Assembly: GCA_903960515.1 (NCBI GenBank)
Contig: CAJCBL010000359.1
Span: 1 to 64,000, forward strand
Length of the DNA: 64,000 nucleotides
Reading direction: 5' to 3'
Source: an uncultured Verrucomicrobiota bacterium
GTDB taxonomy: Bacteria > Verrucomicrobiota > Verrucomicrobiia > Opitutales > Opitutaceae
How positions within the stretch are numbered: the first letter of the stretch is position 1; every line of letters begins with the position of its first letter. The notes below the pieces were generated by a model, which made no database searches, had not been told where the DNA came from, and saw only the letters and a list, made by a program, of their open reading frames with translations. Position numbers and translations under genes: made by a program. This document shows, one piece after another, positions 51,916-60,792 of this stretch.

Positions 51916-51991
51916 TGGAGCCCTCGACCGGATTCGAACCGGTGACCTCGTCCTTACCAAGGACGTGCTCTGCCAACTGAGCTACAAGGGC
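51916..51991 (-). tRNA. tRNA-Thr(GGU)
   Basis: A 76-base cloverleaf with acceptor arms GCCCTTG and CGAGGGC, anticodon loop TTGGTAA (anticodon GGU), T-loop TTCGAAT and encoded TCCA. It lies upstream of tuf and is probably co-transcribed with it. Confidence 0.95.
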
Positions 51992-52077: not shown

Positions 52078-52824
52078 TCACCGGCCGACGCCCACCCGGT
52101 AGAAACCAGGCCTAAGTCGTTCTCCCAGGCGAAATTGCCGTACGAGGTATTCCCCAAAAAATGCGTCGATCTCCTCCACCCCGGAGCCCACCGCCAGCGA
52201 TGCCACCCCCACCAACCCTCCCGGTTCCACCGCCACGGAGAACTCCAGCGGGGCCCAATCGTGCTCCCGCACCAGTGCCGGCAGCTCGGCCAACGCCGCC
52301 TCCAGCACCACCTCGCCACCGGCGAAACTGCGCACCTCCACTCCGGCATCACGCACCGCCAGAGCGTGCACCGGGCGGTCCAGCCGCCCCAGGGCGCCCC
52401 ACCCGCCCGCCATCGGGCCCAGCACCCGCAACCCCGCCCGGGAATCCTGCGGGGCGGCGCTCCGCGGAGCGAATACGGGCTCCAGCCGCTCCGCCGCGAA
52501 GGCCAGCCTGGGCTCATACAGCCCGAACACCTCGCCGGGCTGCCGCTGCAGGGTGGCCGGCAGCGCATCCGCCCCGGCATTCCACGCCGTGGGCATCGAG
52601 AGCGGCTGCTGGTCGAAGAGCTCGATCTGCTCCCTCACCAGCGGCCCGGCACCGGCGGCGCTAGAGGAGACCACCGTCACCCGGGGCCTGCTGGCCGCAG
52701 GCGGAGCCGGCACCGCAGGGTCGCCCCGCCACAGGAAGATGAACGCCACGCGAGTCGCCACCGCGACCCCCGCCAGCGCCCAAACCCAGGGCGCCCAATG
52801 CCTTTGTGCCCGAAGATTCATCAC
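52078..52824 (-). CDS. membrane-anchored protein in the exbBD operon, candidate divergent TonB
   Basis: 248 residues. One N-terminal membrane segment (about residues 11-32, 'WVWALAGVAVATRVAFIFLW') is followed by a Pro/Ala-rich stretch, a poorly conserved middle and a C-terminal domain. That domain runs 'EFSVAVEPGGLVGVASLAVG', then 'SGVEEIDAFFGEYLVRQFRL' and 'RPGFYRVGVG'. This resembles the TonB C-terminal order of strand with 'G-x-V', 'SG-x-x-x-x-D' helix, and a closing strand. It is directly downstream of exbD (4 bases), where tonB is often found. The similarity is by pattern only. No typical TonB long Pro-Lys/Pro-Glu spacer is seen. Confidence 0.5.
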   Translation of the reverse strand: MMNLRAQRHWAPWVWALAGVAVATRVAFIFLWRGDPAVPAPPAASRPRVTVVSSSAAGAGPLVREQIELFDQQPLSMPTAWNAGADALPATLQRQPGEVFGLYEPRLAFAAERLEPVFAPRSAAPQDSRAGLRVLGPMAGGWGALGRLDRPVHALAVRDAGVEVRSFAGGEVVLEAALAELPALVREHDWAPLEFSVAVEPGGLVGVASLAVGSGVEEIDAFFGEYLVRQFRLGERLRPGFYRVGVGR

Positions 52825-52828
52825 GTAT

Positions 52829-53251
52829 TCAATGTGCGCCCGCAGGCGCCTCGGCGGCGATCTGCACCTCGCAGCCCGCCGCAGTGGCCACCGCCGTGAA
52901 GGTGATCAGTGCCTGCGCCGAGGTCTGCCTGTCGGCGCGCAGCAGCAGCCGGGAGGCGCCCTTCTCCCTGACCACCTCGGCGAGGCGCTGGCGAAATCCG
53001 TCCATCGAATACCTTCCGCCCTCGAAAAGGATGAGGTTGTCGCGCTGCAGGTTCACCACCAGTCCGGTGGTCATGGCCGAGCCGCCCTCCAACTGCGGCA
53101 CCGAGATCGTCTCCCCCGGGGCCAGCACGAACTTCGAGGTGAACAGCGTCAGGAAAAGCCCCAGCACCGCCACGTTCACAAAAAAGAACACGTCGAAACT
53201 GCGCGGTGGCGGCCGCAGGTGGGCCGCCAGATCCAGCGGCTGGGTGATCAC
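52829..53251 (-). CDS. exbD: ExbD/TolR-family biopolymer transport protein
   Basis: 140 residues from GTG at 53251, which overlaps the exbB stop (GTGA). One membrane helix lies at about residues 18-38 ('SFDVFFFVNVAVLGLFLTLF'). In ExbD/TolR the helix normally carries a membrane-facing Asp; here the Asp of 'RSFDVFF' is at the start of the helix. The periplasmic domain includes 'LILFEGGRYSMDGFRQRLAE' and 'GASRLLLRADRQTSAQALIT', typical of the family. With ExbB it forms the proton-driven motor. An in-frame ATG far upstream lies inside exbB. Confidence 0.85.
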   Translation of the reverse strand: MITQPLDLAAHLRPPPRSFDVFFFVNVAVLGLFLTLFTSKFVLAPGETISVPQLEGGSAMTTGLVVNLQRDNLILFEGGRYSMDGFRQRLAEVVREKGASRLLLRADRQTSAQALITFTAVATAAGCEVQIAAEAPAGAH

Positions 53252-54036
53252 GGCTTGCCCTTCCCCGGCGCAGCGGCGCCAGCGGCAGTCGCAGCAGCGC
53301 CAGGCTGGGCCGCGTCCGCCGGCTGCGTCACCTTCGCCGGCGCTAGCGCGGCCACCCCCGAAGCGGCCACCGCAGCGGGCGCGCCCAGTGTGCCGTTGCC
53401 GGCCGCACCGGCGGTACGCAGATCGTGGAGCACAAAGCGGATCATCTCGTTGGCCGTCCACTCCATGTCGTGCACCAGCGCCCGCACCCTACCCCGCAGA
53501 AAATGGAACGCCAGATGCGCCGGCACCGCGACAGCCAGTCCTGCCGCGCTGGCTACGAGCGCCTCCCACATCCCGCCGGCCAGCGCCGCCGGGGTGGCGT
53601 AGTTGCCCCCCAGATTGAAGGAGTGGAAGGCCCTGATCATCCCCAGCACCGTGCCGAGCAGCCCCAGCAGGGGCGCCACCTGCGCGATGGCCGCCAGCGC
53701 GCCCATGCGCCGCTCCAGGATCGGCAGCTCCACCAGCGCCGCCTCCTGCACGGCCAGCCGCAGCGCCGACTCGTCGGCCTCATGGTGGAGCAGCGCCGCC
53801 TTCACGATCACCGCCACCGGACCGGCCGTCTCCTCACACACGGTTACGGCCTCCATCAGGCGCCGTTTGAGAAGGATGTTTTTGATACCCGCCAAAAACT
53901 CCGTGGAGCGGATCTGCCCCCGGTGCAGGCTCAGCGCGCGCTCGGCGAACACCGCCAGGCCCACAAGTGCCAGCACCAGCAGCACCCACATCACGGGGCC
54001 GCCCTTGGAAAGAAGATTGGGATCGAGCGCGCTCAT
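53248..54036 (-). CDS. exbB: ExbB/TolQ/MotA-family proton channel protein
   Basis: 262 residues with three membrane helices. The conserved part is 'LERRMGALAAIAQVAPLLGL' and 'LGTVLGMIRAFHSF' followed by 'GGMWEALVASAAGLAVAVPA', the pore-forming helices of ExbB. An Ala/Pro-rich C-terminal tail of about 50 residues is longer than usual. It lies 57 bases after the TPR gene and overlaps exbD by four bases. Confidence 0.92.
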   Translation of the reverse strand: MSALDPNLLSKGGPVMWVLLVLALVGLAVFAERALSLHRGQIRSTEFLAGIKNILLKRRLMEAVTVCEETAGPVAVIVKAALLHHEADESALRLAVQEAALVELPILERRMGALAAIAQVAPLLGLLGTVLGMIRAFHSFNLGGNYATPAALAGGMWEALVASAAGLAVAVPAHLAFHFLRGRVRALVHDMEWTANEMIRFVLHDLRTAGAAGNGTLGAPAAVAASGVAALAPAKVTQPADAAQPGAAATAAGAAAPGKGKP

Positions 54037-54093
54037 GCTTTTTGAGTGTTCAGGTTAATTGGTCGGTTTTCCGGAAGGCAAACGGCGAAACGC

Positions 54094-56733
54094 TCAGCGC
54101 TCGCCCGCCCCTGTATTCAGCCGGGCCAGCGCGGCCTTGGCCGTGTTCTCGCCCCACACCCCGCTGCGCAACGTGAGCTCGTAGGCCTCGCGCGCCTCCT
54201 GCCCCGCCTTCGCCTTCTCGCAGAGGTCGGCATACACCAGCAGCGTACGCCCCAGCCAATACCGGCCCTTCTCGCCCAAAGGCGCGCGCACCGTCGGGTC
54301 GACCAGGAAGCGGTCCGCCACCAGCCACAGGGCGCGCCTCGCCTCGGCGCTGTTGCCCCGCATCGCCAAGGCATAGCCCTCCTTGAAACCGGCCTCGATG
54401 CGCACCTCGGCCGGGGCGCTGGGCAGATCGAACAGCCGCTCGTAGCGCGCCAGCGCGCTGCCCAGCCGCGACGAGTCGGCGGTCACCTGGGCAAACAGCG
54501 TGTCGGCCAGCGCCAGCTCGGCCAGGGCCACGTCGCGGTGGGCCGGGAAACGGTTGACGATCGCTTCGTACATCACCTGGGCAGGCCCCAGCTGGTTGAG
54601 CTTTCGCAGCAGGTCGCCCTGGCGCAACTGGGCATAGAATACGAGGTCGTTGCCCGGGAACTTCTCCACCAGATCGTGCAGGATGCGGAACGCCTCCTCG
54701 CTGTGCCGGTCCTCCCCGCGGCGCTCGGCATTGCCGGCAGCCTCGTAGAGTGCATACGCCGCGTACGGGCTGCTCGCATGCTCGTTGGCGAGCTGGATGA
54801 GCAACTGCTGGGCCTCCACCGTCTGGCCCAGAGCGGAGAGGTACTTTGCCTGGATGATGAAGGAGTACACCGCCGGGTCGCTGCCGGGAAACACCCGCCG
54901 CAGCTCCGCCAGCTCGGCCAGGCCATCGTCCTCGCGGCGCAACTCCAGCAGCGCCTGCGCCCTCAACAGCCGCGCCGTGCCCGCAGTCTCCTGGCGCAGA
55001 GCCGCCGGCACCGCCGTGTTGGCCTCGCCCGCAGGGCCTTCCAGCAGCTTGGCCACCAGGTCCAGCGTCGCCGCCGGCTTCCCGGCCTCCAGCGAGAGCT
55101 TGGCCTGCAACCACGCCAGCCGCAGCCGCAGCTCCGCCGGCGCGGCCCCGAATGTCTCCGCACCCAGCACACGGTTGAGGCGCTCGTAGGCGCGGGCCGT
55201 CTGCCCGCGCACCTGCAAAGTCTTCACCGTATTCCATTCCGCCTGCCAGCGGTTGGCCGCATCGAACTCGGGCTCGCCGGCCAGCCGGTCGAGCACCTGC
55301 AACGCCTCATCGGTCTGCGCCGGCCGGTCGGCCAGCAGCAGCGCAAGCACCTGCTGGAACATCAGTGTGCCCCGCGTCACCCCCGCCGGCAGCGTTCTCT
55401 CCTGCAGCGCCAAGGCGTAGGCGCCGGCGGCGTTGCGATAGTCCTGTGCCCTAAAATAGGATTCCGCCAGCAGCACTGCGAACGGTCCGCGCAGCGGCTC
55501 GGGCCCCAGCTCGCCCTGCAGTTGCGTGATCGCCTCGGCCGCAGTGCGGTAGCGCCGCAGCTCCCACGCCACCGATACCAGCACGTTGAAGGCCGGCTTG
55601 CGGTCGGGCGAACCCGGGAAATCGGCCAGCAACGTCCGCGCGTCGGCCTCGGCCCGGTCGTAGTCCTGCCGCGCCAACGCCAGCCTCGCACGGTACAGCA
55701 GCAGGTCGTCGAGAATCTTGGGCGCCGGCTTGAGGGCGATCTGCACATCGAGCTCGCGGCGGAGCCCGGCGCCCACGTCCGGGTCGCCCGCAGCATTGGC
55801 CAGCAGTTGCAAGGCGATGCGCTGCATCTCCGGTTGCACCGCACCGGCGAAGAGCTGGCGCAGGGCGTTGAGCCCCACCGCACTGCCCGGCCCCGAGATC
55901 AACGCCTGCAACAAGCGCAGCCGGTCCGCGGCCTCGCGGTCGCCCGCCGTCACCATCGCCAACTGACGCTGCAGCACCGCCTGCGCCTCGGCCTTGCGCC
56001 CGAGCTGGTCGAGCACCACCGCCTGCTGGCCCGCCGCCGTAAACCCCACCGGCCGGCCCTGAAACTGGTCCATCTGGCGCTGCAACATCGGCACCTGCTC
56101 GGCCGTGGCCTGACCGAAGAGCAGCCGCGCCCGCTCCCGCGCCAGCAACATCTGGGCACGCGCCAGCTCCGCCACCGCCCGCGACTCCGCCTGCCCGTAG
56201 GCCAGCTGGGCGCGGTCGTACTGCCCACGTGAATCCGCCAGCATCCCCTGGGCCACATACACCCAGCTCGCCTCCTCCACCGGCACCTCCTCGGGGCGAA
56301 GCGTTTCCACCAGCGAGGCCGCCGAGGCATCCTTGCGCAGCAAAGCGATCAACCCGCGGCGCAACCGAGTCTGGGCCGACACCAGATCCGCCCCTCGGCC
56401 CAGCGCCGCCTCCGCCTCGTCGAGCCGGCCGGAGGCGATCTCCACCACGGCCAGCCCTTGCGCAGCCCGGTTGCGAGCGTCCGCCGGCAAGTCGGTCCGC
56501 CCCAGCACCCGCTCATACGAAGCCCGGGCCGCCGTGGAGAAGCCCAACTCCGCCGCGCGCTGCGCCGCCTCCAACTCGAGGAGCGCCTCGCCCGAGCCCA
56601 GCCCGGCGAGCTCCTTGGGCGCAAGCAGCGGCGCCGGCGCCACCGCCGGAATCTGCGCGAGTGCCCACGGCGCGGAGACCACGGCGGCGAGCAAAGGCAG
56701 GACCAGTCGAGCAAGAGTTGGCGACGCAATCAT
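54094..56733 (-). CDS. large periplasmic tetratricopeptide protein upstream of exbBD
   Basis: 879 residues from the ATG at 56733 (56745 and 56802 are alternatives). A signal peptide precedes 'ALAQIPAV'. The mature chain is a series of TPR-like helix pairs throughout, for example 'ALLELEAAQRAAELGFSTAA', 'AQLAYGQAESRAVAELARAQ' and, near the end, 'LYEAAGNAERRGEDRHSEEA'. No enzyme motif is seen. Position and coupling with exbB/exbD suggest a periplasmic partner of the motor, comparable to TPR proteins described with ExbBD in some TonB systems and to CpoB in Tol-Pal. This role is inferred from context. Confidence 0.75.
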   Translation of the reverse strand: MIASPTLARLVLPLLAAVVSAPWALAQIPAVAPAPLLAPKELAGLGSGEALLELEAAQRAAELGFSTAARASYERVLGRTDLPADARNRAAQGLAVVEIASGRLDEAEAALGRGADLVSAQTRLRRGLIALLRKDASAASLVETLRPEEVPVEEASWVYVAQGMLADSRGQYDRAQLAYGQAESRAVAELARAQMLLARERARLLFGQATAEQVPMLQRQMDQFQGRPVGFTAAGQQAVVLDQLGRKAEAQAVLQRQLAMVTAGDREAADRLRLLQALISGPGSAVGLNALRQLFAGAVQPEMQRIALQLLANAAGDPDVGAGLRRELDVQIALKPAPKILDDLLLYRARLALARQDYDRAEADARTLLADFPGSPDRKPAFNVLVSVAWELRRYRTAAEAITQLQGELGPEPLRGPFAVLLAESYFRAQDYRNAAGAYALALQERTLPAGVTRGTLMFQQVLALLLADRPAQTDEALQVLDRLAGEPEFDAANRWQAEWNTVKTLQVRGQTARAYERLNRVLGAETFGAAPAELRLRLAWLQAKLSLEAGKPAATLDLVAKLLEGPAGEANTAVPAALRQETAGTARLLRAQALLELRREDDGLAELAELRRVFPGSDPAVYSFIIQAKYLSALGQTVEAQQLLIQLANEHASSPYAAYALYEAAGNAERRGEDRHSEEAFRILHDLVEKFPGNDLVFYAQLRQGDLLRKLNQLGPAQVMYEAIVNRFPAHRDVALAELALADTLFAQVTADSSRLGSALARYERLFDLPSAPAEVRIEAGFKEGYALAMRGNSAEARRALWLVADRFLVDPTVRAPLGEKGRYWLGRTLLVYADLCEKAKAGQEAREAYELTLRSGVWGENTAKAALARLNTGAGER

Positions 56734-56907: not shown

Positions 56908-58044
56908 TCACCGGCCGGCTACGACAACCTCGCCACGTTTCGCCCCAACCCGGCCCGTGCGGCGACCCTCCTCGCGCTCCAACCTGCGGCGCCCATCGAT
57001 CTCGATCATGAGCCCACGAAACTCCGGTTCGTCGGGCTTGATACGAAGGGCCCGCGCGAGGTGATGGCGCGCCTCGTCGAGGCGACCGGCGGCAAACTCC
57101 TCTCGCGCGACAGCAGACAGGTAATACGGGTTGTGTTCGCGATAGCGCAAAGACCGCCGTTCGAGGCGCTCAGCTTCATCAACCCGGCCCGCCGTGCGCT
57201 GAAGGTGCGCGAGCCCGCTCAGGGCCGCCATCGTGTCCGGGGCTGCAACCAACGCGCGCTCGTAACACAGGCTGGCGCATTCCGCCTCGCCAGCCAGCGC
57301 GCGTGCCCCGCCCAGATTCGACCACGCGAAGGCGGCAGATGGATCGGTAAGCGTGGCCAGTTCAAACAGACGCAGCGCGCCAACCCTATCGCCGGCGGCA
57401 AGCCGATAGACCCCGGCGTTGCTAAACATCCCCGCGAAAGCCCGCACATCATCGACAACCATTGTCGTGATACGCGCCTCGCGCCGGTTCTCCGAGCCCT
57501 TGAGGTCGATTTCATAGGTGCCGTCGGCAAGCTCGACGCGCACGTTGAGGTGCCTGCTTTCGAGCACTATCCCGCCGGCTCGGTCCCAAAGGGGGCGCAT
57601 CGCCACCTCGTTGAAGCTCGCCGGTATCCTGAATTCGCGGGCCACGGCAACCACGAGCAGGGCATAGGTTACGCAGTTGCCCCGGCGGCGGCGGAACGCC
57701 TCGCGCACATCGTAGACTCCGCCGGTTTCGTAGCGGAAATGCAGGCCGTGTTCACCGAGGATGGCGGCCGCGATTTCATCGATTCGGGCTTCGCGCGAGC
57801 CCTTGCGATGAACGCGTGCTGCGAAGAAGGCCCGCATCTCGTCGTCCAGGCGCAGCAGTTCCTGGGGATTCTCGGGCAGGCGGTATTCGGCAGCAGCTGT
57901 ACGACTGGGGCAAGCTGCCGAGCCCGCTGCCGCGGCAAGTGCCATGGGCGCGGCAAGCGCCAGCAACGCCACGGCGGCCGCAAGTAGTAGTCTGGGCGCA
58001 GACCGGCCGAAACTGCGCAAACAGGTCGTAGATATCGGAGTCAT
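56908..58044 (-). CDS. secreted transglutaminase-like protein with TPR repeats
   Basis: 378 residues. A signal peptide (about residues 17-38) is followed by a transglutaminase-like domain with the probable triad Cys in 'RRRGNCVTYALLVVAVAREF', His in 'ESRHLNVRVEL' and Asp in 'TYEIDLKGSE'. The C-terminal third has TPR motifs ('AFAWSNLGGARALAGEAECA', 'ARHHLARALRIKPDEPEF'). The order (Cys-His-Asp, then TPR) resembles SirB1-like proteins. GAGGACAT lies before the ATG. It lies upstream of the TPR-exbBD operon on the same strand, with a gap of about 175 bases. Activity could be protease or cross-linking; neither is shown. Confidence 0.75.
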   Translation of the reverse strand: MTPISTTCLRSFGRSAPRLLLAAAVALLALAAPMALAAAAGSAACPSRTAAAEYRLPENPQELLRLDDEMRAFFAARVHRKGSREARIDEIAAAILGEHGLHFRYETGGVYDVREAFRRRRGNCVTYALLVVAVAREFRIPASFNEVAMRPLWDRAGGIVLESRHLNVRVELADGTYEIDLKGSENRREARITTMVVDDVRAFAGMFSNAGVYRLAAGDRVGALRLFELATLTDPSAAFAWSNLGGARALAGEAECASLCYERALVAAPDTMAALSGLAHLQRTAGRVDEAERLERRSLRYREHNPYYLSAVAREEFAAGRLDEARHHLARALRIKPDEPEFRGLMIEIDGRRRLEREEGRRTGRVGAKRGEVVVAGR

Positions 58045-58954: not shown

Positions 58955-59824
58955 TCAGGCTTTGGGCGTTTTCTTGCGCGCCACGAACACCACACCGGCC
59001 GCGAGTATTATTAGACCAACGAGCCACCAAGCGGGATTTGTTTTCGCGGCAGGCGCTGGCTCCGTCGCCGCCGTCGGGATCGACGCCGCCACGGATGATT
59101 TAATCGGCTCCGGCGTGGGTTCAGGCGGCGGCGCAACGCCTGCGGGTGGTTCGGGCGCCGCAGGCAATAGCTCAAGGTTTTCTGAAGGATTATTTGTGGA
59201 TTCGAATGGGGCGACTAGATCGTATTTTTCGCTATCAAAATACTTGGCGTTAAGCCGCCACCATGCCCGAAGTTCTTGTATGGACGCATTCATTTTATCG
59301 ATTTGACGCGTGCTGCCCAGTTTAACTTTCGCCCACTGTTGGACTGAGGCAGGCATTTCGGGGCTCGTGCTCAACAAGTATAATACTAAGGCGTGGGTGT
59401 TGCCTGCGGGACCAAAATTCACACTTTCGCCCAAAGTGACCAACTGCGCAGGCGGTGCGTCCATGAATAATGGCATCACATGTGGAATAATCCAAGGAGA
59501 GCGCGAGGAAAGCAAAGCTCTGTATGCTTGCGATGCCATTCCGCCTTCTGCGGCATAAGCATTAATGTATTTACTGATCGTGGCCACGTCCCTAAGTCGG
59601 ATTATCGCCGATGTATGGCGACCCGGGGATTTCTCATCTAATTTCCTCAGGGAGGCGACCACTTCATCCAAAGCGTAGCCTTCTGCGGACGGCGGAAGGT
59701 TTTCGGATGTTAGTTTATCACTCTCGGCTAATAGTGTTGAGAGGTAGTTGGCGCTAACCTCGCGCGCACTAAGCGAATGAACGGCTCCCCCTACAAAAAT
59801 CATCAATAAAATAATGTTTTTCAT
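58955..59824 (-). CDS. secreted protein with C-terminal membrane anchor, partner of a metallopeptidase
   Basis: 289 residues, not recognised. A signal peptide (residues 1-20, 'MKNIILLMIFVGG...SLSA') is followed by an alpha-helical domain to about residue 205 ('LLAESDKLTSENLPPSAEGY', 'LRDVATISKYINAYAAEGGM'), a Pro/Ala/Glu linker and a C-terminal anchor 'WWLVGLIILAAGVVFVARK' with positive residues after it. It would sit outside the inner membrane, held at its C-terminus. Its ATG overlaps the stop of the metallopeptidase gene by four bases, so they are translationally coupled. GC is lower than in the neighbours, suggesting transfer. Confidence 0.7.
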   Translation of the reverse strand: MKNIILLMIFVGGAVHSLSAREVSANYLSTLLAESDKLTSENLPPSAEGYALDEVVASLRKLDEKSPGRHTSAIIRLRDVATISKYINAYAAEGGMASQAYRALLSSRSPWIIPHVMPLFMDAPPAQLVTLGESVNFGPAGNTHALVLYLLSTSPEMPASVQQWAKVKLGSTRQIDKMNASIQELRAWWRLNAKYFDSEKYDLVAPFESTNNPSENLELLPAAPEPPAGVAPPPEPTPEPIKSSVAASIPTAATEPAPAAKTNPAWWLVGLIILAAGVVFVARKKTPKA

Positions 59825-60792
59825 TGTTTAATCCTCAATGCCTCCTCGTTCGCCATCTTCCAATCCTCGTGCTTCATCCATCTGCCATGTGTCCAAGGCA
59901 TTTTACCATCAATGGGCCATCCGCTTTGCATCAAGGCCTTATTGGGATGAGGCAGGAAGTCGCTTCCCATAGAAGGCGGGGGCGCTCCGTTCGGGAGGTC
60001 CGTTTCAACCGCCAACGCATACGGCGGGTCATCGTGACCAGAGCCAGGAAATGTGCTATCCGGATTCACGGTCAATCCTAACTTGTGCCCTACTTCATGG
60101 GCAATCGCAGTGTCCATGTAGCCCACTGTTTCTCTCGCAAATAGCATTATGTCCCTAAACGGAAACGAGGGATTGGAGCCTGTTATCCTTAAATGTGGAT
60201 AATTCAAAGCCGGATTTATGCTGCAATAAGGCCTGCCACTGTTCTTCAGGATGAATATCTGTATGTCGGCCGCATACTTGGCGTCGCCAAAAGGTAAATT
60301 ATTTTGATATTCCGTTTGAGACAACTGCCCATCCTGCCCAAGCTCGACGACCTCGCTGGTTTCCCCGCCGTTTTGAATGAGTCGATGCGTGTCATATGGT
60401 TCGGGATAAACTCTCGAATTGGCGCTTACTACAAAAGACACCCCGGCTTGCTTAAATGTATCGTTCAGAACATCTCGAATCGCGGTGAAGTTCGGCAACG
60501 GAATCGAAGGTGATGACGCGAATTGTGTTCCGTTTGATGTGTTATCTTCAATAACAAAATAGCCGACACTTAACGGAGCGCGCTGAGGCAGGACAAAAAT
60601 CTTAAGGGTCAAAATTGCCGGTCCAGCGCTGCCGCTTGAAACGAGTGTGATGGTAGGCGCGGGGGCGTCCAGGTTGCTAACCAAGCCCGTGATCGTAAGC
60701 TTGGTCGTGGCGCTGGTAAACGTCTTGGGCGATATATCAATGCGCGTGGTATCAGCGGCGGCGACGATCAGGGCTGGGCGAAGGAGGCGCAT
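59821..60792 (-). CDS. HExxH metallopeptidase-like protein, possibly 5'-truncated
   Basis: 323 residues. The zinc motif 'IAHEVGHKLGLTVNP' is near residue 230. HExxH is complete, but the position where metzincins have the third His is occupied by Val, so the third ligand must lie elsewhere. The first 90 residues are beta-rich ('KLTITGLVSNLDAPAPTITL'), like an Ig or bacterial repeat domain. There is no normal signal peptide; the first codons run straight into an intergenic repeat at 60793, so the original N-terminus may be lost. C-terminal sequence ends 'DWKMANEEALRIKQ'. GC is near 50 percent. It is coupled to the anchored protein downstream. Confidence 0.65.
   Translation of the reverse strand: MRLLRPALIVAAADTTRIDISPKTFTSATTKLTITGLVSNLDAPAPTITLVSSGSAGPAILTLKIFVLPQRAPLSVGYFVIEDNTSNGTQFASSPSIPLPNFTAIRDVLNDTFKQAGVSFVVSANSRVYPEPYDTHRLIQNGGETSEVVELGQDGQLSQTEYQNNLPFGDAKYAADIQIFILKNSGRPYCSINPALNYPHLRITGSNPSFPFRDIMLFARETVGYMDTAIAHEVGHKLGLTVNPDSTFPGSGHDDPPYALAVETDLPNGAPPPSMGSDFLPHPNKALMQSGWPIDGKMPWTHGRWMKHEDWKMANEEALRIKQ

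Follow-up and report, generated by a model that had tools for sequence, protein, structure and literature searches.

Does every operon that pairs ExbB and ExbD with a TonB-like partner encode a motor driven by the proton motive force (PMF)? The question is raised by four minus-strand genes at positions 52078–56733 of a 64,000-nucleotide stretch of contig CAJCBL010000359.1, from an uncultured bacterium of the Opitutaceae (Verrucomicrobiota); we refer to the whole stretch as the window. The genes encode a secreted tetratricopeptide repeat (TPR) protein, an ExbB/TolQ-type subunit (ExbB), an ExbD/TolR-type subunit (ExbD), and a one-helix protein, here called the tether. An initial sequence-only reading had described these genes as a tightly packed operon, which the open reading frames (ORFs) and their spacing confirm, and had suggested an energized envelope system. 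The most important feature of the module, which that reading overlooked, is the absence from ExbD of the membrane aspartate that binds the proton. On balance, we lean slightly toward interpreting the operon as a PMF-uncoupled, repurposed TonB/Tol-type envelope complex.

The membrane aspartate of ExbD and its loss

In the available text of three papers (PMC9389320, PMC12204202, and PMC11658791), the membrane aspartate of MotB, ExbD, and TolR is described as essential or as conserved, and excerpts of the last of these name ExbD(D25N) and TonB(H20A) as inactive E. coli mutants. The ExbD of the window has an asparagine, Asn26, at the same position as in the inactive ExbD(D25N), and the histidine of the tether is absent as well, which argues against the suggestion that the system is energized. 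The alignment is ungapped at Asn26, and one column holds this residue, the aspartate of two canonical paralogs from the same genome, and the aspartate of a relative in the family (L055). An assembly error was considered as the source of the asparagine and rejected, given its occurrence at 87 loci in many genomes.

The substitution characterizes a whole clade. We examined 121 loci in the order Opitutales and left out 6 at which the ExbD and tether residues were not both readable; the remaining 115 have Asn at 87, Ser at 2, and Asp at 26. The tether histidine is found at none of the 89 loci that lack the aspartate versus 19 of the 26 that have it. These 89 loci span 38 genera, all in the family of the window, and the seven genomes of that family (six genera) with an Asp-bearing ExbD all have the tether histidine. 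The same picture emerges from 80 named loci, some of them shared with the first set (Asn 72, Ser 1, Asp 6, and one unread), with the tether histidine in 0 of 73 Asp-less loci and in all 4 readable cases among the 6 Asp-bearing ones. Geminisphaera colitermitum TAV2 and Cephaloticoccus primus are named examples of the Asn type. At one locus left unread in the census (L133), ExbD is frameshifted, and the other frame shows Asn. Ser takes the place of Asn at three loci (L053, L130, and L214). A careful ExbB tree of 58 rows, from which four long-branch rows were omitted and to which each genus contributed one Asn row, accounts for the Asp-less group with one change (support 95/85, recovered in 96% of 200 bootstraps), and a quick tree of 113 rows gives the same single change with a support of 83. 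Because one change suffices on the ExbB tree, the aspartate and the tether histidine were probably lost in one event in an Opitutaceae clade, a state that was then kept family-wide.

Beyond the order, the ExbB alignment found a match in all 113 genomes of the class that were searched, mostly with one match well above the next paralog, and we treated the best match per genome as the ortholog. Of 71 class loci read (70 outside the order and one, L325, inside it), 67 have an ExbD and 4 have no ExbD match. Read first by eye and then by alignment, the residue at the aspartate position is Asn at 22 loci, Asp at 13, Ala, Gly, and Thr at 7 each, Cys at 6, Ser at 3, and Leu and Val at 1 each, so that the aspartate is absent from 54 of the 67 and has eight different replacements. 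In a quick 97-row tree, for which only part of the Asn rows was retained and the histidine states of two loci (L313 and L319) were assigned by eye, no fewer than 11 changes are needed to explain the presence or absence of the aspartate. Well-supported branches force at least 5 of these, and the identity of the residue requires 27 changes. Loss of the aspartate is thus recurrent in the class. A third, one-helix gene follows ExbD at nearly all of these loci, and among the 65 of its products that could be aligned, the position of the tether histidine holds His in 37, Gln in 12, and other residues in 16. Of the two left unaligned, L319 has His by eye and L339 yielded none; L313 counts as Ala in the alignment, yet has a histidine one column away.

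The pore of ExbB has changed alongside. Its hydroxyl residues in E. coli ExbB, T148 and T181, were matched by motif to T129 and S163 of the window, where both are present. The second pore Thr/Ser is found at 58 of 89 Asp-less loci of the order (gone in 31) versus 23 of 23 Asp-bearing loci, and at 31 of 54 versus 13 of 13 in the class. The loci are related, and the counts of pore residues are therefore not independent. As judged from these alignments, the second pore threonine decays in parallel with the loss of the ExbD aspartate.

As a control, sampled paralogous ExbD proteins have the aspartate in 62 of 62 cases, comprising all 30 read from 10 Asp-less family genomes, all 30 read from 10 Asp-less class genomes, and 2 from the genome of the window; the 60 are mostly high-scoring loci out of 130 matches (73 + 57, each including the Asp-less locus itself). 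Two further ExbD proteins of the window's genome, used as alignment anchors, also have it. Within the genus of the window, dN/dS is ≈0.17–0.24 for ExbB, 0.17–0.23 for ExbD, and 0.19–0.27 for the tether, next to 0.14 for EF-Tu. Because these values lie between 0.17 and 0.27, all three genes are under purifying selection.

The one-helix tether and the TonB/TolA fold

The last gene had been put forward as a divergent TonB with a TonB-like C-terminal pattern and no classic Pro-rich spacer. That pattern is present and a long Pro-rich spacer is absent, as described. In the AlphaFold2 model, a single membrane helix near the N-terminus is linked by a poorly ordered middle to a folded domain at the C-terminus. 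The C-terminal domain reaches a pLDDT of ≈97 in the model of the whole tether and 92.9, with a pTM of 0.82, when modeled alone from 113 sequences. The structural comparison proposed for this domain came out, modestly, in favor of TonB/TolA. In VIA-align, the top five matches to both models are TonB/TolA C-terminal domains only, at Z values (two models) of 5.1/5.2 for 6sly, 4.9/5.0 for 9dc4, 4.9/4.8 for 1lr0, 4.9/4.7 for 9ddz, and 4.0/4.1 for 6s3w, and thus from 4.0 to 5.2, a modest range, since a Z below 8 may reflect a common arrangement. The next, unrelated rows follow at 3.2/3.3, and HasB, a TonB relative, ranks eighth in the second run. Independent support comes from the membrane helix, where relatives have a histidine that matches the motor-contact histidine of TonB/TolA in both placement and surroundings.

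Sequence searches did not add to this picture. The tether has no Pfam or NCBIfam match, none of 40 members of its family matches the TonB/TolA families of Pfam at E values up to 1, and a profile of these 40 members run against the PDB reaches TonB 9ddz only at an E value of 0.49, among unrelated rows. An hhalign comparison with three TonB domains from the same genome also gave no match, as a weak test in which 3 of 8 domains were recovered by pattern. Foldseek alone gave no match to the tether with E < 0.1 in either run; it placed TonB 9dc4 at rank 6 in the first and outside the 50 listed matches of the second, and we took the fluorescent proteins that fill its list at E > 0.1 as noise (TM-score ≈0.1). 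Fold, topology, gene context, and the histidine of the relatives thus support the earlier assignment of a candidate divergent TonB, whereas the Pfam profiles do not. The models indicate that the tether is TonB/TolA-related in topology and C-terminal fold, and we do not file it as TonB because no sequence profile recognizes the protein.

A conserved segment follows the membrane helix. P74, L75, P78, and T79 are each present in at least 90% of the 40 tether sequences, and a DPSLFALP-like segment occurs after the helix in 51 of 64 third proteins of the class, as found with a loose pattern; the AlphaFold2 model has no strand there. From its conservation, the segment could be a motor box, a term used in the available text of PMC12204202 for the tether segment that binds the ExbD dimer.

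Gene layout and genomic neighborhood

The four genes form a real, conserved, and distinct arrangement, as had been suspected from the window. ExbB and ExbD overlap by 4 nucleotides, an overlap seen in 27 of 37 relatives, and the tether gene begins 4 nucleotides past the end of ExbD. Among 39 other loci, ExbD directly precedes the tether gene in all 39, ExbB and the TPR gene lie alongside in 37, and EF-Tu (tuf) follows the tether gene in 35, so that chance does not account for the arrangement. The departures are few: at L064, the TPR gene lies ≈2 kb off and EF-Tu is absent from the stretch examined; L039 stops at a contig edge; L071 has no EF-Tu in the stretch examined; L077 lacks EF-Tu and matches to ExbB and the TPR protein; and L069 has neither an adjacent ExbB nor a TPR match. 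Downstream of the operon in the window, a tRNA-Thr is followed by ORFs that we named by eye as EF-Tu, NusG, and L11, a ribosomal neighborhood.

Relatives that could be identified by name belong to the Opitutaceae/Opitutales, a kinship that places the window in this order. A single-sequence query detected the tether in 41 of 57 relatives, and a query with the alignment of 40 sequences detected it in 234 of the 250 family genomes, including 161 of the 165 good ones. In a sample of 288 genomes from the phylum, the 43 matches comprise 25 in the family, 17 in other families of the order, and 1 outside the order, which is weak and covers 40 residues. Across the class, a recognizable relative of the TPR protein occurs at only 6 of the 67 loci and a match to the tether model at E < 0.01 at 11 of 67; the full four-gene module is therefore best shown for the order. 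One genome (G081) has the module twice (L139 and L140), both of the Asn type. In another family of the order (G054), the module is apparently split, with ExbB and an ExbD that has Leu at the aspartate position on one contig (L325) and the tether on another (L091).

The features of the operon are collected in Table 1. The best NCBIfam model for ExbB is tolQ, at 81 bits and under its cut-off; the TPR protein has a TPR_6 match above the cut-off in Pfam (E = 1.8e-7) and, below the cut-off in NCBIfam, a tol_pal_ybgF-like stretch.

Table 1 Features of the operon and its flank in the window
Feature	Position	Strand	Basis
tRNA-Thr, between operon and tuf (context only, outside the module)	51916-51991	-	
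TonB/TolA-like one-helix protein (tether), 248 aa	52078-52824	-	ORF; AlphaFold2 models; fold comparison
Tether C-terminal TonB/TolA-like domain, residues 155-248	52081-52362	-	AlphaFold2; fold comparison
Tether residues 71-82, past the helix; candidate motor box, with DPTPLFLPTxWN as the consensus of the family	52579-52614	-	Conservation
Tether transmembrane helix, residues 11-32	52729-52794	-	AlphaFold2 model
Tether Arg25, at the position of the TonB/TolA motor-contact His (SHLS motif)	52750-52752	-	His of relatives (19/26 Asp-bearing, 0/89 Asp-less loci)
ExbD/TolR-type subunit without membrane Asp	52829-53251	-	PF02472, 34.5 bits (cut-off 25.4)
ExbD Asn26, at the position of the proton-binding Asp (E. 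coli D25)	53174-53176	-	Alignment
ExbB/TolQ-type pentamer subunit	53248-54036	-	PF01618 (MotA_ExbB), 101 bits (cut-off 22.9)
ExbB His174, candidate alternative proton group	53515-53517	-	Overrepresented in the Asn clade
ExbB second pore hydroxyl, S163	53548-53550	-	Motif alignment with E. coli T181
ExbB first pore Thr, T129	53650-53652	-	Motif alignment with E. coli T148
TPR protein (secreted, 879 aa), encoded by the operon's first gene	54094-56733	-	Translation; N-terminal signal-like segment

Upstream of the operon, a transglutaminase-TPR gene (56908–58044; Transglut_core in Pfam) had been noted as a neighbor. The gene exists, but it is not a conserved one: none of the 39 other stretches contains a relative, and we therefore place it outside the module. 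Further along, an ORF at 59821–60792 contains an HExxHxxG-type motif (AHEVGHKLGL) and, read by eye, may encode a metzincin-like protease.

Elsewhere in the same genome, separate canonical TolQ/TolR/TolA-like and TonB loci are found. One (L079, on contig G000:C339) is a TolQ-TolR-TolA-like locus with the canonical ExbD aspartate and a tether with a TonB_C-like domain; another (L081 and L082, on G000:C295) is a tandem ExbD pair before a classic TonB gene, with the aspartate in both. A link of the operon to TonB-dependent receptors left no sign, as none of the seven Plug matches in the genome is on its contig. TolB_N has no match in the genome, where a divergent TolB could escape detection.

Competing explanations and known systems

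How might such a complex work? Ancestrally, it was probably a force transducer powered by protons, because the Asp-bearing relatives with the tether histidine are canonical. An ExbB pentamer would surround an ExbD dimer, the tether would send one helix out of the inner membrane with its TonB/TolA-like domain at the end, and the secreted TPR protein, by operon logic, would be the likely periplasmic partner. In the lineage of the window, the ExbD aspartate would have become asparagine, the tether histidine would have been lost, and the second pore threonine relaxed, from which it would follow that the complex is no longer proton-driven. It may have been kept as a docked structural or signaling assembly that ties the inner membrane to the periplasmic space or to the outer membrane, and the retained first pore threonine and candidate motor box would be in keeping with continued assembly. 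By analogy with MotB, a frozen motor is plausible, because there Asn in place of Asp mimics the protonated state, D22N being termed protonation-mimetic in the available text of PMC9389320. For the class as a whole, we consider the evidence evenly poised on a broader claim, that a class-wide ExbB-ExbD-tether family of Verrucomicrobiota repeatedly gave up the proton-binding residue of the 5:2 motor and persists as machines with no motor function, which would be the first "pseudo-motors" found in nature in the superfamily. We found no report of a natural Asp-less ExbD in the titles, abstracts, and passages of the open-licence PMC literature, nor any mention in the available text of PMC12204202, PMC6957404, PMC9389320, PMC11658791, PMC12505986, or PMC13274419.

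Several results weigh against an uncoupled complex. The first pore threonine is retained at 89 of 90 Asp-less loci of the order (23 of 23 Asp-bearing) and at 50 of 54 in the class (13 of 13 Asp-bearing), and because it is so widely kept, the alignments indicate that the pore has not been given up entirely. The tether histidine persists at 27 of 52 Asp-less class loci, and a lineage-paired test of aspartate loss against histidine loss across the class was not significant. Strict co-loss of the two residues as a general law, which the order data had suggested, was rejected on these class data; co-loss is thus a trait of the Opitutaceae clade, probably from one event, and not a rule. The fold match of the tether is modest (Z ≈5) and comes without a TonB sequence-profile match, a possible substitute for the aspartate exists in ExbB His174, and Asp-bearing ExbD proteins encoded elsewhere in the genome could join the complex. 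Gene order, fold likeness, the residue losses and their recurrence, the paralog control, and purifying selection are observed; from them we infer assembly, loss of proton coupling, the TPR partnership, and the biological role.

Two of these points lead to explanations that keep the motor running, each of which we regard as unlikely. The complex could still be ion-driven if another group, such as His174 of ExbB, had replaced the ExbD aspartate. His174 is present at 81 of 89 Asp-less (Asn or Ser) loci of the order versus 4 of 23 Asp-bearing loci, Gln119 of ExbB at 90 of 90 versus 6 of 23, and the first pore threonine is kept, all of which would suit a rewired pore; but His174 is rare at Asp-less loci of the class (7 of 54) and also occurs at two Asp-bearing loci of the family (L055 and L125), the second pore threonine decays, and the ExbD helix has gained no acid. 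An acid at ExbD position 20 was considered as a shifted replacement and rejected, as it is older, being shared with Asp-bearing relatives, and is missing from 10 of the 89 Asp-less loci. With a similarly low probability, an Asp-bearing ExbD from another locus could pair with the Asp-less ExbD inside the pentamer. Such ExbD proteins are available in the window's genome and in all 20 Asp-less genomes searched, and excerpts of PMC12204202 describe paired unlike tolR genes in clusters of the PVC group. Against such a hybrid, the operon has a single ExbD at the loci examined, and an active hybrid would not predict the relaxation of the second pore threonine.

The remaining explanations fare worse. 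That the operon is a TonB or Tol system of the ordinary kind, driven by the PMF and serving uptake or constriction of the envelope, which is how the sequence-only reading took it, is very unlikely: the fold, the operon layout, and the existence of Asp- and His-bearing relatives are as expected of one, but both residues are missing in the window, no TonB-dependent receptor is encoded on the contig, TolB_N is absent from the genome, and the genome has separate canonical TolQ/TolR/TolA-like and TonB loci. That the module is the relic of a motor, now in decay and no longer functional, to which the repeated loss of motor residues would point, we consider least probable of all in view of its near-universal presence in the family, the low dN/dS values, and a mean column identity of 55% across 37 ExbB sequences. 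The uncoupled, repurposed complex thus remains the interpretation that we favor. The aspartate has been replaced many times in a conserved operon, with Asp-bearing paralogs in the same cell, which makes it possible to tell the motor role of ExbBD complexes apart from a scaffold role. It also cautions that genes of this kind may be misannotated as proton-driven TonB or Tol systems.

Overall, the module combines features of several known systems. Like ExbB-ExbD-TonB, it has an inner-membrane pair of the same Pfam families and a one-helix tether with a TonB-like C-terminal fold. Unlike that system, it has Asn for Asp in ExbD, neither a tether histidine nor a long Pro-rich spacer, a TPR gene as part of the operon, no nearby receptor, and no TonB_C profile match. 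Its likeness to TolQ-TolR-TolA lies in the tolQ model as the best (below cut-off) NCBIfam match of ExbB, in TolA domain III among the top fold matches, and in the YbgF-like stretch of the TPR protein; it differs in that the genome has no TolB_N and a separate TolQ/TolR/TolA-like locus, and in the missing aspartate. In the Vibrio TonB2 operon, as far as the available text of PMC6957404 describes it, a TPR protein, TtpD2, is likewise encoded with the TonB system and is essential, whereas that operon has six genes, including TtpC and TtpB, places the TPR gene last, and serves iron uptake. The PVC clusters described in excerpts of PMC12204202 contain a TPR gene, a tolQ-like gene, two unlike tolR-like genes, and a vWA transducer, and are presented there as PMF-driven. 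The module shares with them the succession of a TPR gene, motor genes, and a one-helix transducer, but in contrast has a single ExbD, a C-terminal domain that is TonB/TolA-like and not vWA, and no proton-binding residue.

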